A stretch of 36,775 nt of DNA from Burkholderiales bacterium (GTDB lineage Bacteria; Pseudomonadota; Gammaproteobacteria; Burkholderiales; Burkholderiaceae_C). A program made the translations under genes and the position numbers. The number at the start of each line of letters is the position of its first letter. The stretch's first letter is position 1. Positions 8,671-26,875 of the stretch are shown here, one piece after another. The stretch is from positions 1-36,775 of the forward strand of contig JAFKGE010000050.1 in NCBI GenBank assembly GCA_017307865.1, given 5' to 3'. A model generated the notes under the pieces. That model did not search any database and was not told where the DNA came from. It worked only from the letters and a program-made list of their open reading frames with translations.

Positions 8671-10815
8671 ATGAACCGCGTTGACGCCACCTTGTTGAAC
8701 ACGCCGCCCGCCCTGGTTTCACTGCCGCGGCGCCTTGCCCTGCCCGCCAGCAGCCCGCAGGACTTTCGCCAGCGCCTGCGCGACTACTTCGTGCAGACCT
8801 TCGACGCCTACGAGTCGCTGTTTCGCAGCCTGGCGGGCGACGCGGCCTGGGTGCAGCGCCCCATCACGCTGCGCCATCCGCTGATCTTCTATTACGGCCA
8901 CACGGCCACCTTCTTCGTCAACAAGCTGCTGCTCACGCGCCTGATCACCGAGCGCATCGACCCGCAGCTCGAATCCATCTTCGCCGTCGGCGTGGACGAG
9001 ATGAGCTGGGACGACCTCGACGCGGCGCATTACGACTGGCCCCCCGTGGCGCGCGTGCAGGCCTACCGCGACCGGGTGCGCGCGCTGGTCACCGGCCTGA
9101 TCGACAACGCCCCGCTCACCCTGCCGGTGAACTGGGAAAACCCCTGGTGGGCCATCGTGATGGGGGTCGAGCACGAGCGCATCCACTTGGAGACGTCTTC
9201 GGTGCTGATTCGTCAGCAGCGGCTCGACTATGTGCGGCAACAGCCCGACTGGCCGGTGTGCCCCGATGTAGGCGAGGCGCCACCCAACACCCTGGTCGAC
9301 GTGCCCGCGGGCCCGGTCGCGCTGGGCAAGCCCTTCGACTCGCCGCGCTATGGCTGGGACAACGAGTACGGCCGGCACGCGGCCGAGGTGCCGGCCTTTC
9401 AGGCCAGCCGCCTGCTGGTGAGCAACGGCGAGTTCCTGGAGTTCGTCACCGCCGGCGGCTACGCGCACGACGCCTTCTGGGACGACGAGGGCCGGCGCTG
9501 GCGCGACTTCGCCCAGGCCATGCACCCCACGTTCTGGGTGCAGGGCGCGGGCGGCTGGCGCCTGCGCGCGATGACGCAGGAAGTGCCCATGCCCTGGAAC
9601 TGGCCGGTCGAGGTCAACTGTCTGGAGGCGCGCGCCTTCTGCCGCTGGAAGGCGCAGCACAGCGGCCAGCCGGTGCGCCTGCCGACCGAGGACGAGTGGC
9701 ACCGCGTGCTGGCCACCAGCGGCTGGCACCTGCAGGACGCCCGGCCCGTCGACGCCAACCTGTACCTGGAGCACTGGGCCTCGTCCTGCCCGGTCGATCG
9801 CTTTGCGCACGGCCCGTTCTGCGACGCGGTGGGCAACGTCTGGCAATGGACCGAAACGCCCACCTACCCCTTCGAAGGCTTCAAGACCCACCCGATCTAC
9901 GACGACTTCACCACGCCCACCTTCGACGACCGGCACAACCTCATCAAGGGCGGCTCGTGGATCGCCACCGGCAACGAGGCCGAGCCCGAGTCGCGCTACG
10001 CCTTTCGGCGCCACTTCTTCCAGCACGCCGGCTTTCGCTACGTGGTGGCCGAGGCGCCGATGCGCCCGCCCGCCTCGCACTACGAGACAGACGACCTGGT
10101 CACCCAGTACATGGAATTCCACTACGGCGCCGAGTACCACGGCGTGCCCAACTTTCCCAAGGCGCTGGCCCGGATCGCCGTCGAGGCCGTGGGCCACGGC
10201 CCGCGCCGCCGCGCGATGGACCTGGGCTGCGCGGTGGGCCGCGCCGTGTTCGAGCTGGCGCGGCACTTCGACGAGGTGGTGGGCGTGGACTTCTCGGCGC
10301 GCTTCATCGACCAGGGCGTGGCGCTGGCGCGCGGCGACACGGTGCGCTACACGGCGGTGGAAGAAGGCGAGCTGGTCGAGTACAAGGCCGTCAAGCTGGA
10401 CGACCTGGGCCTGCAGGGCACGGCCGCGCGCGTGCAGTTCTGGCAGGGCGATGCCTGCAATCTGAAGCCGCAGTTCGGTGGCTACGACCTGATCCTGGCC
10501 GCCAACCTGATCGACCGCCTGTACGACCCGGCCAAGTTCGTCACCAGCATCCACGAGCGCCTGAACCTCGGCGGCGTGCTGATGATCACCTCGCCTTACA
10601 CCTGGCTGGCCGAGCACACCGCGCGCGACAAGTGGCTGGGCGGCTTCAAGAAAGACGGCGAGAGCTGGCGCACGCTGGACGCGCTGCGCGCCCTCCTGGC
10701 CCCGCACTTCGAGCCCCTCGGCGCGCCGCGCGACGTGCCCTTCGTCATCCGCGAGACCGCGCGCAAGTTCCAGCACACGCTGGCGCAGGCCACGCTGTGG
10801 CGGCGGGTGCGCTAG
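8671..10815 (+). CDS. ovoA: OvoA: 5-histidylcysteine sulfoxide synthase with C-terminal 4-mercaptohistidine N1-methyltransferase domain
   Basis: Protein of 714 aa. Domain order: DinB-like helical domain (about 30-200), formylglycine-generating-enzyme-like domain (about 205-465), and a Rossmann SAM methyltransferase (about 480-714). The iron-binding HX3HXE is HERIHLE at 168-174; another His (YYGHTAT) lies near residue 77. GNVWQWTETPTYPFEGF and KGGSWIATGNE are the FGE-type core. The methyltransferase glycine loop is AMDLGCAVGRAVFEL near 516-530. OvoA joins cysteine to C5 of histidine with oxygen, and the C-terminal domain N-methylates the later 5-thiohistidine to ovothiol A. The PLP lyase OvoB is not in this window. 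The start at 8671 gives the family N-terminus. Confidence 0.93.
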   Translation: MNRVDATLLNTPPALVSLPRRLALPASSPQDFRQRLRDYFVQTFDAYESLFRSLAGDAAWVQRPITLRHPLIFYYGHTATFFVNKLLLTRLITERIDPQLESIFAVGVDEMSWDDLDAAHYDWPPVARVQAYRDRVRALVTGLIDNAPLTLPVNWENPWWAIVMGVEHERIHLETSSVLIRQQRLDYVRQQPDWPVCPDVGEAPPNTLVDVPAGPVALGKPFDSPRYGWDNEYGRHAAEVPAFQASRLLVSNGEFLEFVTAGGYAHDAFWDDEGRRWRDFAQAMHPTFWVQGAGGWRLRAMTQEVPMPWNWPVEVNCLEARAFCRWKAQHSGQPVRLPTEDEWHRVLATSGWHLQDARPVDANLYLEHWASSCPVDRFAHGPFCDAVGNVWQWTETPTYPFEGFKTHPIYDDFTTPTFDDRHNLIKGGSWIATGNEAEPESRYAFRRHFFQHAGFRYVVAEAPMRPPASHYETDDLVTQYMEFHYGAEYHGVPNFPKALARIAVEAVGHGPRRRAMDLGCAVGRAVFELARHFDEVVGVDFSARFIDQGVALARGDTVRYTAVEEGELVEYKAVKLDDLGLQGTAARVQFWQGDACNLKPQFGGYDLILAANLIDRLYDPAKFVTSIHERLNLGGVLMITSPYTWLAEHTARDKWLGGFKKDGESWRTLDALRALLAPHFEPLGAPRDVPFVIRETARKFQHTLAQATLWRRVR

Positions 10816-21281: not shown

Positions 21282-21971
21282 TCACGGTCGCGCCCAGTTG
21301 CCCATCAGTCGCGCGGGATGTGGCACCGTGATCTTGCGCCCGCTGACCTGCAGCAGCCCGGCCTGCTGCAGCTCTTGCAGGATGCGCGAGAAATGCTCCG
21401 GTGTCAGGTTCAGGTGCGAGGCGATGGCGCCCTTGGTGGCCGGCAGGGTGAGGGCGAAGGGTGCTGCGGGGTCGTCGCAGTGGCGCAGCAGCCAGGTCAC
21501 GAAGCGCTCGGTGCCATTGCCGAGCGCCTGCAGCTCCAGTTCTTGCACCAGACTTTCCACGCGCCGGCTCAGGCCCACGAGCATGAGGCGCGCAAAGCGC
21601 GGGTTGCGTTCCAGCTCGTCGAACACCGCCTGCTTGGGCACCTGCAGCAGCAGCGCGTCGCTGGCGACCTCGGCGCTCACCACCGCTGGCCGTTCCAGGA
21701 ACATCATCGGCTCGCCCAAGCTGTGGCCGGGCCCGGCGACGCCGGTCAGCCGCGTGCCGCCCTTGGGCTTGTGGCCTACCAGGCGCACCTGGCCGTAGAC
21801 GATGACGTACAGGCCGCCCAAGCGCTCGCCGCGGCGAAACACAGGGTCACCGCGCTTGAAGGCGTGCCGCGTCGTGGCCGCCGCCAGTCGCGCCAGCGTG
21901 GCCTTGTCCAGCGCCTGGAACAGCGGCAGCCGCGCCAGCAGGGTTTCAGCGGGGATTTCGCGCGGGGCCAT
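21282..21971 (-). CDS. Crp/Fnr-family transcription regulator, Dnr-like
   Basis: Protein of 229 aa. The effector domain is about 1-130 (LPLFQALDKATLARLA, FRRGERLGGLYVIVYGQVRL), then the dimer helix and a helix-turn-helix (ATKGAIASHLNLTPEHFSRI). The recognition helix has E-x-x-S-R (PEHFSR), the set that reads TTGAT-type half-sites in Fnr and Dnr. The N-terminal Fe-S cysteines of Fnr are absent, so it is closer to Dnr/NNR (NO-responsive) or a plain CooA/Crp relative. Its start lies 26 bp inside the S26 peptidase gene, so it belongs to the same operon, behind a DnrO-like and a NiSOD-like gene. Confidence 0.82.
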   Translation of the reverse strand: MAPREIPAETLLARLPLFQALDKATLARLAAATTRHAFKRGDPVFRRGERLGGLYVIVYGQVRLVGHKPKGGTRLTGVAGPGHSLGEPMMFLERPAVVSAEVASDALLLQVPKQAVFDELERNPRFARLMLVGLSRRVESLVQELELQALGNGTERFVTWLLRHCDDPAAPFALTLPATKGAIASHLNLTPEHFSRILQELQQAGLLQVSGRKITVPHPARLMGNWARP

Positions 21972-22455
21972 GCCCGAGCGTAGCGCCAACCGGCCCTGGC
22001 CTGCGGGTTCGATCCGGTTCGGCACCTGGGCCGCGCTGCGGTGCACGCCACGGCGGCAGCCAACCCCGCCCGACGATTCTGCCGACGATGGCCTCGCGCG
22101 CGATGTAGGGCTGGCGCCAGCTGCGGCTGTCGTTGGAGGCATCGCGGTGGTCACCCAGCAGCAGATAGTGACCCGGCGGCACCTGAAAGCTGTCGGTGAA
22201 CACCGAGCGGCTGGCGTAGGGCTCGGCCAGCGGCCGGCCGTCGATGTGTACCTGGCCCGCGCGCAAGTCCACCGTTTCGCCCGGCAGGCCAACGATGCGC
22301 TTGACCACGCGCCGGCCCAGCTCGCGCGAATCGGCCACCACGATGTCGCCGCGCCGCGGCGTGGCGCGCCGCCCCAGCCGCAAGGTCAGCGCCAGGGCGC
22401 CGTCCCGCAGCGTGGGCGCCATCGAGTGCGATTGCACGCGGGTGAGCCAGGCCAT
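21946..22455 (-). CDS. S26-family signal peptidase, like the Ni-SOD maturation protease (SodX)
   Basis: Protein of 169 aa. Type I signal peptidase boxes are complete: SMAPTLRDG with Ser11, VVKRIVGLPGETV with Lys52, and GDHRDASNDSR (101-111). There is no N-terminal membrane anchor, since the Ser box begins at residue 11, as in the small SodX-like proteases encoded beside nickel superoxide dismutase. I start it at the ATG at 22455 because this lies one base after the TGA of the NiSOD-like gene; earlier ATGs lie inside that gene. The last 35 residues (PPWRAPQRGPGAEPDRTRRP...) are outside the peptidase fold and overlap the regulator start. Confidence 0.82.
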   Translation of the reverse strand: MAWLTRVQSHSMAPTLRDGALALTLRLGRRATPRRGDIVVADSRELGRRVVKRIVGLPGETVDLRAGQVHIDGRPLAEPYASRSVFTDSFQVPPGHYLLLGDHRDASNDSRSWRQPYIAREAIVGRIVGRGWLPPWRAPQRGPGAEPDRTRRPGPVGATLGHGPARNPR

Positions 22456-22456
22456 G

Positions 22457-23062
22457 TCAGTGCCCGCAGCCGCCGCCACCATGCCCATGGTGCCCGTGCC
22501 CGTGGGCGTGCTCATGGTCGTGGCCTTCGGCGTATTTGAAGAACGACACGTAGGCGTCCATGTAGCTGCGCGCGGCGGGCAGGTCGTCGTCGTTGAAGTG
22601 CTTCAGCGCGATCGCCTGGTCGAAACGCTTTTCCAGCTCGGGCCAGCGCGCGGCGTCGATCAGGCCGCGCAGCGGCTCGATGCTGCCGCGCTCCAGCGCC
22701 TCGTCGGCGGCGCGCACCTGGGGCGGGATGGCGGTGCCCGCGGGCTTGATGCCGTCGTAGCCTGCGCCTTCGCCGGCGCGGTGGATGCGCACCAGGTTCT
22801 CCAGGAACCACTGCTCGGCCAGCGCCGCGGCCTCGCCACCGGCGGCGCGCACCCTCGCGGCGCGCTCGAAGATGCCGCGCAACTCGGCTTCGCCCTCGGG
22901 CTGTACCCATTTGAGGGCGATGTTGACCTTGCCCGTGCTCAGCGCGCGGCGGCCATCCGCAACCGCGGGGCCGTCGGCCGTGTCGCAGTGCGCCGAGGCG
23001 GGACGGATGACGAGGCCCGTGATCGACGAGGCCAGGGTGCGCAGGAACGTGTTGAAAGTCAT
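22457..23062 (-). CDS. Nickel-SOD-like (DUF6448-type) secreted protein with His-rich tail
   Basis: Protein of 201 aa. A 24-residue leader ends in PASA, so cleavage would expose HCDTADGPAV. Mature His1 and Cys2 of nickel superoxide dismutase (HCDLPC...) are kept, but Cys6, the second nickel thiolate, is replaced by Asp (residue 30). The following helical region (NIALKWVQPEGEAELRGIF, ENLVRIHRAGEGAGYDGIKP) fits what I remember of DUF6448. The C-terminus, HDHEHAHGHGHHGHGGGGCGH, is a clear metal-binding tail. A strong AGGAG precedes the ATG. The S26 peptidase gene follows one base later. Nickel or another metal is a likely ligand; SOD activity is doubtful without Cys6. Confidence 0.75.
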   Translation of the reverse strand: MTFNTFLRTLASSITGLVIRPASAHCDTADGPAVADGRRALSTGKVNIALKWVQPEGEAELRGIFERAARVRAAGGEAAALAEQWFLENLVRIHRAGEGAGYDGIKPAGTAIPPQVRAADEALERGSIEPLRGLIDAARWPELEKRFDQAIALKHFNDDDLPAARSYMDAYVSFFKYAEGHDHEHAHGHGHHGHGGGGCGH

Positions 23063-23674: not shown

Positions 23675-23688
23675 TTGGGAAACATCAA
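23675..23688. promoter_or_regulatory. Candidate Fnr/Dnr box upstream of the dnrO-like operon
   Basis: On the minus strand the site reads TTGAT-GTTT-CCCAA, eight of ten matches to TTGAT-N4-ATCAA. It lies about 94 bp upstream of the DnrO-like ATG, in the 266-bp divergent region shared with the secreted protein at 23848. The operon encodes a regulator with the matching E-x-x-S-R recognition helix. Nothing else was recognised in this gap. Confidence 0.4.
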
Positions 23689-25830: not shown

Positions 25831-25860
25831 TTGACAATTCTCCCGCCTTCACGGCAGGAT
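25831..25860 (+). promoter_or_regulatory. Probable promoter of the glycine-rich protein gene
   Basis: TTGACA (25831-25836) is a perfect -35; 18 bp later CAGGAT (25855-25860) is a poor -10. The downstream ATG at 25898 has a good AGGGAG Shine-Dalgarno. Confidence 0.4.
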
Positions 25861-25897
25861 GCCTCGCTTTTGCGCATTCATACAGGGAGAGAAAAAT

Positions 25898-26875
25898 ATG
25901 ATCGGACTTAGGACTCGTGCCTCAACGCCCGTCGTGGCAGGGGTCGCCTGCCTGGCGGCCATGGGCTCCGGTGCGGCATTCGCGCTGACGCAGCCGCCGC
26001 CTTACACCACGCCCGGCACCTACAGCTACACGGTTCCCGCAGACGTCAGCGCCATCAGGGTGGCGGTGGCGGGCGGCGGCGGCGGCGGTGGCGGGTATGA
26101 CATATCCGGCGGCTCTGGAGGCAACGGCGGCACCGGTGGTGTAGGTGCCCTGTTGAACGGGACCATCGCGGTGACGCCGGGCAGCACGGTGAGCGTGGTG
26201 GTCGGCGGGCCAGGCGCGGGCGGCACATCGGACAGCGACGGCAATCCGCCCGCCGGCGGCGCGGGTGGCAGCGGCCAAGGTGCGGGTGGCCCGGGTAGTC
26301 GGTCAGGCACGTCTGGCGGCAGTGGTTCGGGCGGCGGGGGCGGCGGCAGCAGCAGCGTGTCCGTCGCTGGCATCGTGGTGCAAGCCGGTGGCGGTGGCGG
26401 TGGTGGAGGTGGCAGCTATTCAGAGATCGGCGGCAACGGCGCTGGCGCTGCGGGAGCCGCCTCGGCGCCCAACTGCGCAACGGGCACGACAGGCGCCACA
26501 GGGAGCAACCCGGGTGCTACGGATGGCGGCGGCGGCGGCGGTGGCGGCGGCGGCGTCACCGCAGGAACGGCCGGCACAGCGGGACATGACGGCACGGCTG
26601 CAGCGGGCGGCGGAGGAGCCGGTGGTTCGTGCTACCTCGGCGCGGTGCAGAGCCTGTCGGCCACGGCAGGCGGTGGCGCCGGCGGCGCGGGAGGCGTGTT
26701 TGGCGCGCCGGTGCCCGCGGCCCAGGTGGGTGGCGCCGGTTCGGTGGTGCTGACACTGGTCGCCACACCGGCGCCCGTGCCGACGATGGGCGAATGGGCG
26801 CTGGGGCTGCTGTCCCTTTTTGCTGCCTCTTTGGGTGCCCGGCAACTGCTGCGGCGTACGGCGCAGCGACGCTGA
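25898..26875 (+). CDS. Glycine-rich secreted protein with an IPTL-CTERM sorting tail
   Basis: Protein of 325 aa. The signal peptide ends in GAAFA. A short beta segment ([20 protein letters not shown]) runs into a long Gly/Ala/Ser-rich body, about 200 residues with several runs of 6-9 Gly, as in phage-tail- or surface-type glycine-rich domains. The C-terminus, [20 protein letters not shown] followed by [13 protein letters not shown], is an IPTL-CTERM signal: a V/I-P-T-x-x-E-W motif, a helix and basic residues. Proteins with this tail are expected to be processed and exported to the surface by a dedicated sorting system. It stands between the MFS gene and ssb and looks like a lineage-specific insertion. 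Confidence 0.82.

Follow-up and report, generated by a model that had tools for sequence, protein, structure and literature searches.

A DUF6448 gene beside an unanchored S26 peptidase gene

We analyzed a 36,775-nucleotide stretch of DNA (hereafter the window), contig JAFKGE010000050.1 of the Burkholderiales bacterium assembly GCA_017307865.1, which carries on its minus strand a run of four genes in the order P0004, P0002, P0001 and P0003. The two central genes encode a DUF6448 protein of 201 amino acids (P0002; 22457..23062) and an S26 peptidase of 169 amino acids without an N-terminal membrane segment (P0001; 21946..22455). A single base (22456) separates them; P0004 lies 27 bases upstream of P0002, and P0003 overlaps P0001 by 26 bases. 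An earlier sequence-only reading of this DNA had described the pair as a protein resembling nickel superoxide dismutase (NiSOD) coupled to a peptidase resembling SodX, and its coordinates, strand and reading frames are as we find them.

P0002 is a full-length member of DUF6448 (PF20046), matching positions 1-147 of the 147-position profile with 178.9 bits against a gathering cut-off of 27 (E 7.2e-53). It begins with a weakly hydrophobic leader of 24 residues, MTFNTFLRTLASSITGLVIRPASA (22991..23062), which ends in ASA and which, from the translation and comparison with other leaders, is predicted to be cut after Ala24. The protein would then start with HCDTADG (His-Cys-Asp-Thr-Ala-Asp, 22973..22990), with the equivalents of NiSOD His1 and Cys2 standing directly after the predicted cut and Asp at position 6. 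Its C-terminal tail, HEHAHGHGHHGHGGGGCGH (22460..22516), holds 8 His and 1 Cys in 19 residues. Both ends had been read correctly from the sequence, and so had the one-base spacing to an unanchored peptidase with a Ser/Lys dyad. In the Pfam database, the PF20046 profile starts after the HCD motif and the entry states no function; within the limited literature searched, we found no paper naming DUF6448 or PF20046.

To compare P0002 with its family, we scanned one genome per species and obtained at least 527 confirmed DUF6448 relatives. Frequencies from the 80 nearest genome_contigs loci, the best 80 of these at least 527, are biased because the loci were ranked by similarity to a P0002-led profile and the scan patterns include AHCD. 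Among plasmids, 47 records had a match and 9 loci were fetched. The simple gene-calling script overlooks some genes or gives them a wrong start, and distances in gene context run between stop-to-stop open reading frames (ORFs).

Ala-His-Cys-Asp and Gly-Pro are invariant in an alignment of 12 diverse members. The pattern HC[DN]...GP occurs in 106 of 111 ORFs matching the DUF6448 profile, a set that takes in a duplicate of the window protein and a few repeats; the remaining 5 are downstream or C-terminal fragments, and all intact N-termini contain HC[DN]. Among 78 relatives aligned to P0002, themselves chosen by this HC[DN]...GP pattern, 77 have Asp at position 3; at position 6 there is Asp in 73, Glu in 3, Gly in 1 and Ala in 1, and Trp52, His94, Arg95, Glu98, Gly104, Gly109 and Gly126 are invariant. 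Asp is thus the family norm at residue 6, and the "loss of Cys6" is no peculiarity of this copy. Ala stands at -1 before the His in 78 of 81 members compared, the window included (this comparison and that of the His-rich tails leave out L025, L071, L050, L051, L060, L077, L058 and L068). Members found with the Pfam profile are an independent test of the motif, since that profile begins at mature position 6, and HCD is present in every one of them with an intact N-terminus.

The AlphaFold model of P0002 has an all-helical core, with a mean predicted local distance difference test score (pLDDT) of 84.2 and at least 92 in every ten-residue block from 31 to 180. Bridge residues 28 and 105 in the model suggest that the HCD end may pack by the conserved HRxGEG loop. 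Candidates for a solved homologue of DUF6448 amounted to 7 weak profile matches, none credible. A query with one protein, sensitive to close relatives alone, had no match in viral_contigs, and there was no viral fold match at E 0.001.

P0001 scores 102.2 bits with PF10502 (Peptidase_S26) and 103.8 bits with TIGR02227 (signal peptidase I; cut-off 47), and it matches signal peptidase I chains of the PDB. Counted by hand from the ATG at 22455, residue 11 is a Ser (QSHSMAP) and residue 52 a Lys (VVKRIVG), both in surroundings usual for S26, and we take them to be the catalytic pair. Further in-frame ATGs upstream add 11 to 20 residues (MSTPTGTGTMGMVAAAAGTD) and no membrane-like stretch. An N-terminal membrane anchor is typical of signal peptidase I. 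P0001 is like that family in its scores above the curated cut-offs, in its Ser/Lys pair and in the Ala-x-Ala before the predicted cut in its neighbor, but window-type peptidases differ in having no N-terminal membrane segment and in recurring as a genomic partner.

An S26 ORF lies directly downstream of DUF6448, on the same strand, in 38 of the 80 nearest loci, and with the S26 profile used no other S26 was found in those loci (up to 12.6 kb). Besides these and the window itself, 2 of the 9 plasmid loci, from Tetragenococcus halophilus and Aerococcus, also have S26 directly downstream. Sampling with the Pfam profile found an S26 neighbor within ~1.5 kb in only 2 of 16 positive genomes, both Burkholderiales (the 16, with centre genomes left out, comprise Pseudomonadota 2, Actinomycetota 8, Burkholderiales 4 and Bacillota 2). 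The linkage, reported here for the first time, is real and belongs to part of the family: the suggested co-occurrence of DUF6448 with SodX-like peptidases holds in one clade and, in the sample drawn with the Pfam profile, fails in most of the family.

Leader types and peptidase types

DUF6448 leaders match their S26 partners in type. At 17 loci, the window among them, a start codon is available 10-15 residues before the S26 serine, a distance that leaves no room for a membrane segment (the script took farther starts for two of these S26 genes, 21 residues before the Ser in the window and 30 in L025; nearer starts give 10). All 17 DUF6448 leaders in these loci, hereafter soluble leaders, are short or weakly hydrophobic (e.g. 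MNIAKVLRLFVRTASA, MFAVLKRLFELIPTAEA), and position 5 is Ala or Glu in every case. The best 11-residue hydrophobicity mean is at most 2.25 in these loci and at least 2.23 in the other 24 with S26. Leader hydrophobicity correlates with the S26 anchor (Spearman 0.70, n=41, kinship uncorrected and anchor classes partly assigned by eye).

The 24 hydrophobic leaders fall into three groups by a net-charge rule. In 16, net charge is more positive after than before the hydrophobic stretch (inverted leaders); 14 of their S26 partners show the same pattern, 1 (L021) the opposite, and 1 was assigned to neither. Five are bacillar loci in which a Sec-type leader accompanies a Sec-type S26, two of them the same Tetragenococcus gene, and 3 leaders are undecided by the rule. 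Applied to the 17 soluble leaders, the rule is inconsistent (8 undecided, 5 inverted, 4 Sec). The class table omits L003 (strand handling) and L063 and L064 (no ATG within 42 codons). By the positive-inside rule of membrane topology, an inverted leader and its S26 would both face the cytoplasm.

In a tree of DUF6448 (without L025, L071, L058 and L050), the 38 rows with soluble or inverted leaders make up one side of a branch with support 98.7, and the approximately unbiased test allows the soluble class to have arisen once (p-AU 0.40). A tree of the peptidases (without L050, L017 and L032) places the unanchored type twice: the window type among the DUF6448-linked peptidases, and a second beside the S26 of NiSOD loci. 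Because of these placements, the leader/peptidase correlation rests on one or two independent changes.

Other relatives have no leader. A start of the form M[PA]P-HCD or similar occurs in 7 actinobacterial genomes (one gene interrupted) and 2 bacillar genomes of the Pfam sample, with no S26 nearby within the sequence stretch examined. Pro directly precedes the conserved His in all eight of L125, L127-L131, L140 and L141 (Actinomycetota, Bacillota). One of the findings that the sequence-only reading had named as speaking against it is partly present here: in the leaderless relatives M[PA]P stands before HCD. Either aminopeptidases free the His in these proteins or the motif acts by its side chains alone, and the leaderless sequences argue that a free His1 may not always be needed.

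These forms bear on a rival explanation, in which S26 is an accessory signal peptidase, the exact N-terminus is irrelevant, HCD is kept for its side chains (to fold the protein or to build an internal metal site) and the leader is removed only as part of localization. The leaderless members fit it, as do the leaders of the 48 loci without S26, of which 36 are Sec-type, 5 inverted and 7 undecided. Against it, the cut is predicted exactly before the His across leader classes, with the -1 Ala almost constant, and the soluble class keeps both a leader and a soluble peptidase though nothing seems to be exported. We consider this explanation unlikely.

Three further variants have a membrane-like region in frame before DUF6448 in place of a signal peptide and are the second of two tandem copies (L080, 5096-5635; L083, 6028-6564; L085, 6028-6558); a fourth, L084 (6001-6531), is likewise preceded by a membrane-like region. 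Two related small proteins are encoded directly upstream of DUF6448 in the beta-proteobacterial loci L021, L024, L073, L080, L081, L082, L085 and L091; the L073 pair is zf-HC2 (anti-sigma-like) and Metal_resist by Pfam, and the others were assigned by BLAST clustering. DUF6448 also adjoins an AraC regulator on plasmids from Salmonella, Raoultella and Marinobacter that are mobilisable or conjugative (L009, L011, L012), and L009 and L012 have phosphonate-uptake genes nearby.

Comparison with NiSOD and SodX

An excerpt of PMC5722923 gives His1, Cys2 and Cys6 as the metal ligands of NiSOD, and an excerpt of PMC3919588 gives SodX as its cognate peptidase, the S26 partner in sodN/sodX. Actinobacterial NiSODs carry HCDLPCG after leaders such as MLSRLFAPKVKVSA (L114). 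DUF6448 is like this system in its predicted mature His-Cys-Asp, Gly7, short leader ending in Ala and nearby S26-family peptidase. It differs in having Cys at position 6 in none of the 78 relatives, a His-rich tail, and no detectable sequence or fold similarity to NiSOD. PF09055 had no match in P0002 at E up to 1, HHalign of the mature domains (105 DUF6448 against 27 NiSOD sequences, the NiSOD side narrow with an Neff of 2.1) gave a probability of 0.6%, and Foldseek of the P0002 model against the PDB gave nothing significant (best E 1.9; NiSOD 3g4x at rank 30, E 8.4, probability 0.08). On these profile and fold comparisons we rejected homology of DUF6448 and NiSOD. A NiSOD ORF in L121 that matches the DUF6448 profile (17.3 bits) was not used, because that profile includes the leader.

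By its score, the peptidase was rejected as a SodX as well. P0001 scores 28.4 bits with the SodX equivalog TIGR02754, below the NCBIfam cut-off of 63.25, and ten other unanchored partner peptidases score 22.3-41.7 bits (judged against that cut-off alone). What P0001 shares with SodX is a neighbor with an HCD predicted mature start, one base away. S26 genes occur in 20 of 31 NiSOD loci (~3 kb each), mostly on the strand opposite to NiSOD, and window-type peptidases group with DUF6448-linked peptidases rather than with these. By eye, the S26 proteins beside actinobacterial NiSOD (L095-L123) often show an N-terminal hydrophobic stretch followed by Arg, as the anchored DUF6448 peptidases do.

One could still imagine P0002 as a superoxide dismutase or reductase working like NiSOD, with Asp in place of the second thiolate. 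The matching spacing of His-Cys-Asp and Gly7, the S26 partner as in sodN/sodX (PMC3919588) and soluble leaders similar in length to that of L114 would fit this idea. The Cys6 ligand that NiSOD needs (PMC5722923) is absent from the relatives, neither profiles nor folds indicate kinship, and NiSOD itself is also present in 2 of 16 genomes with a soluble-leader DUF6448; we regard such an enzyme as very improbable. A family search detected no NiSOD in the window's own genome, and control genomes there gave no match either; the same search found NiSOD in 46 of 149 actinobacterial genomes.

The sequence-only reading had proposed a related metal-binding protein with its own processing protease, and no dismutase. 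The protein has what seems to be a processing protease of its own, metal binding is plausible from the His-rich tails, and the protein is probably not NiSOD; the supposed kinship to NiSOD finds no support. The pair appears to be NiSOD/SodX-like in maturation logic and a member of neither family. Within the limited literature searched, we found no paper joining N-terminal histidine, nickel superoxide dismutase and signal peptidase.

Gene context and a proposed maturation route

For gene context, 113 of 141 called neighbor proteins in one scan and 130 of 174 in the Sec group were scanned with Pfam. The Sec group of 47 loci also counts 7 undecided leaders and L083, which is inverted by the net-charge rule and preceded by its fused membrane-like region; 4 of the 47 have S26. 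The most frequent families were cNMP_binding/HTH_Crp_2 (11 of 113 neighbors) and, in the Sec group, hemerythrin (10 of 130), where we also detected NorB (6), two-component parts (8 each), NnrS (2), Prismane/Hcp (2) and ScdA_N/RIC (2). The family identity of the neighbors of nitric oxide (NO) type was confirmed on representative samples. With query proteins picked after these Pfam results had been seen, NorB, RIC, hemerythrin, Hcp or flavorubredoxin genes were found within 4.5 kb of DUF6448 in 21 of 47 Sec-group, 1 of 21 inverted and 0 of 17 soluble loci. Near-duplicates L050, L051, L060 and L077 were left out of the neighbor-distance counts and of the box scan described below.

Annotated plasmid loci show the orders hcp-(PAS)-ric-flavorubredoxin-DUF6448 and hemerythrin-DUF6448, and in an uncultured planctomycete (L076, 5974-7125) a single open frame encodes DUF6448 joined to a hemerythrin domain (202.1 and 27.2 bits). 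In a Phycisphaerae genome (L087, 5164-7958) DUF6448 shares one run of genes with an Rrf2-family regulator and Hcp (Prismane), which suggests NsrR-type control. The window's own genome encodes a NorB-type NO reductase. NorB is above cut-off in 13 of 49 DUF6448 genomes, its own included, a count that we do not use as evidence because there is no background sample.

Crp/Fnr genes lie within 1.5 kb of DUF6448 in 13 of 17 soluble loci (window included), compared with 5 of 21 inverted-leader loci and 3 of 47 in the Sec group. In the window this gene is P0003 (21282..21971, minus strand; PF00027 and PF13545), which is FtrB-like yet below the NCBIfam equivalog cut-off. At 68-81 bases upstream of DUF6448, 12 of 17 soluble loci carry the palindrome TTGAY-N4-RTCAA with 9 or 10 of its 10 positions matched, versus 11 of 820 background windows; the box had been defined more broadly for this count, following an initial scan that used the FNR consensus. 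The corresponding counts are 4 of 20 for inverted loci (background 23 of 792) and 5 of 47 for the Sec group (93 of 1761). According to an excerpt of PMC1274295, candidate HcpR sites upstream of hcp and norB have this same consensus, which is similar to the DNR/FNR box. The soluble class is thus like the FNR/HcpR/DNR nitrosative-stress regulons in its TTGAC-N4-GTCAA-type box and Crp/Fnr neighbor, and the Sec-leader loci are like them in their hcp, norB, RIC and hemerythrin-type genes; DUF6448 itself does not appear in that excerpt.

The soluble-leader loci without a box are the window, L013, L017, L018 and L025. The first gene of the window's run, P0004 (23090..23581, minus strand), encodes a small predicted exported protein with strong homologues in L013, L025, L021 and L024. 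A weak Crp/Fnr-type palindrome, TTGATGTTTCCCAA (23675..23688, minus strand), starts 107 bases upstream of P0004; with 8 of 10 positions it was not counted as a site, and before the P0004 homologues of L013 and L025 the strict FNR consensus is matched at under 8 of 10. P0004 matched no Pfam or NCBIfam family above cut-off. Its predicted model has four helices (pLDDT 74.4) and weakly resembles four-helix bundles including cytochrome c' (best E 0.25; cytochrome c' 0.5-1.7), and we rejected its assignment to a known family. Elsewhere, on the plus strand, the window encodes an OvoA ovothiol synthase (8671-10812; TIGR04344 672 bits, TIGR04345 342 bits, far above the NCBIfam cut-offs) and a Gly-rich protein with a terminal IPTL-CTERM sorting signal (25859-26872; TIGR04174 23.5 bits, cut-off 20.5).

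Gene context also bears on the possibility that DUF6448 is a metal carrier, buffer or sensor, in which the His-rich tail and N-terminal His-Cys would bind Ni, Cu or Zn and the protein would hand the metal on or signal via its Crp/Fnr neighbor, with no catalysis. Tails have a median of 7 His in 16 soluble-leader members, and a median of 7 also applies to soluble- and inverted-leader members. Metal_resist occurs in 4, CueP in 2 and HMA in 2 of 130 neighbors, Cation_efflux in 2 and VIT1 in 2 of 113, and Dps, HMA and P-type ATPase genes lie near the Tetragenococcus osmophilus copy. These metal-handling neighbors are scattered, however, no metal recurs, and cNMP_binding/HTH_Crp_2 and hemerythrin are more frequent; Sec-leader tails are poorer in His (median 4), though HCD is kept there. 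The carrier or sensor role for nickel or copper proposed by the sequence-only reading finds no single metal indicated, and the context points to nitric oxide and nitrosative stress instead. We judge a carrier, buffer or sensor of this kind to be rather unlikely.

We favor, at about even odds (a probability of roughly 0.5), a cytoplasmic maturation pair that exposes a His-Cys-Asp metal site in a nitrosative-stress protein under Crp/Fnr control. This account builds on the observed gene order, conservation, matching of leader and peptidase types, and linkage to Crp/Fnr genes and, among Sec-leader relatives, to NO genes. P0002 and P0001 would be a substrate and its dedicated maturation protease. 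We infer that the unanchored S26 cuts the short, non-secretory DUF6448 leader after Ala-Ser-Ala in the cytoplasm, and the cut would free a His-Cys-Asp N-terminus. These residues, with Asp6 or another conserved residue (e.g. His94/Glu98), may form a small transition-metal site, and the His-rich tail may help metal loading. Crp/Fnr-type control would govern DUF6448 production, and the protein would serve the response to nitric oxide or related reactive nitrogen or oxygen species. In relatives, a comparable N-terminus would arise through Sec export or, next to an anchored S26, through a membrane leader in reverse orientation.

Several observations weigh against this maturation route. The inverted leader of L021 pairs with an S26 scored the other way, the anchor classes were in part visual assignments, and the independent leader/anchor changes number only one or two. 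S26 neighbors are scarce in the Pfam-sampled genomes, and the M[PA]P-HCD relatives retain the motif although, having no leader, they offer no evident route to a free His. The window has no box of 9 of 10 upstream of DUF6448, and the box counts depend on the widened definition. NO-type genes are all but confined to the Sec class, so that for the soluble class the NO role is an extrapolation.

A bolder version, which we put forward tentatively and think doubtful, is that DUF6448 is a new metalloprotein unrelated to NiSOD, with an independently evolved catalytic N-terminal amine/His/Cys hook for detoxification of NO (or superoxide). One clade would have moved from the envelope to the cytoplasm, through a reverse-membrane and then a soluble form, each with a dedicated, topology-matched S26.

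In NiSOD/SodX, the known example, a cognate peptidase uncovers an N-terminal metal hook; the predicted N-terminus and the gene neighborhoods suggest that DUF6448 may employ such maturation independently, as a second instance. If so, a second, non-homologous family that shares these first three residues and has an S26 partner of its own would make the arrangement a general solution rather than a curiosity. It would also help to find out what a widespread DUF does, one found in at least 527 stretches from species-level genomes, beside NO-defense genes and on plasmids. The family is a natural experiment: one domain occurs with leaders of Sec, reverse-membrane and soluble type and also without a leader, so that whether the N-terminal His must be free is directly testable.

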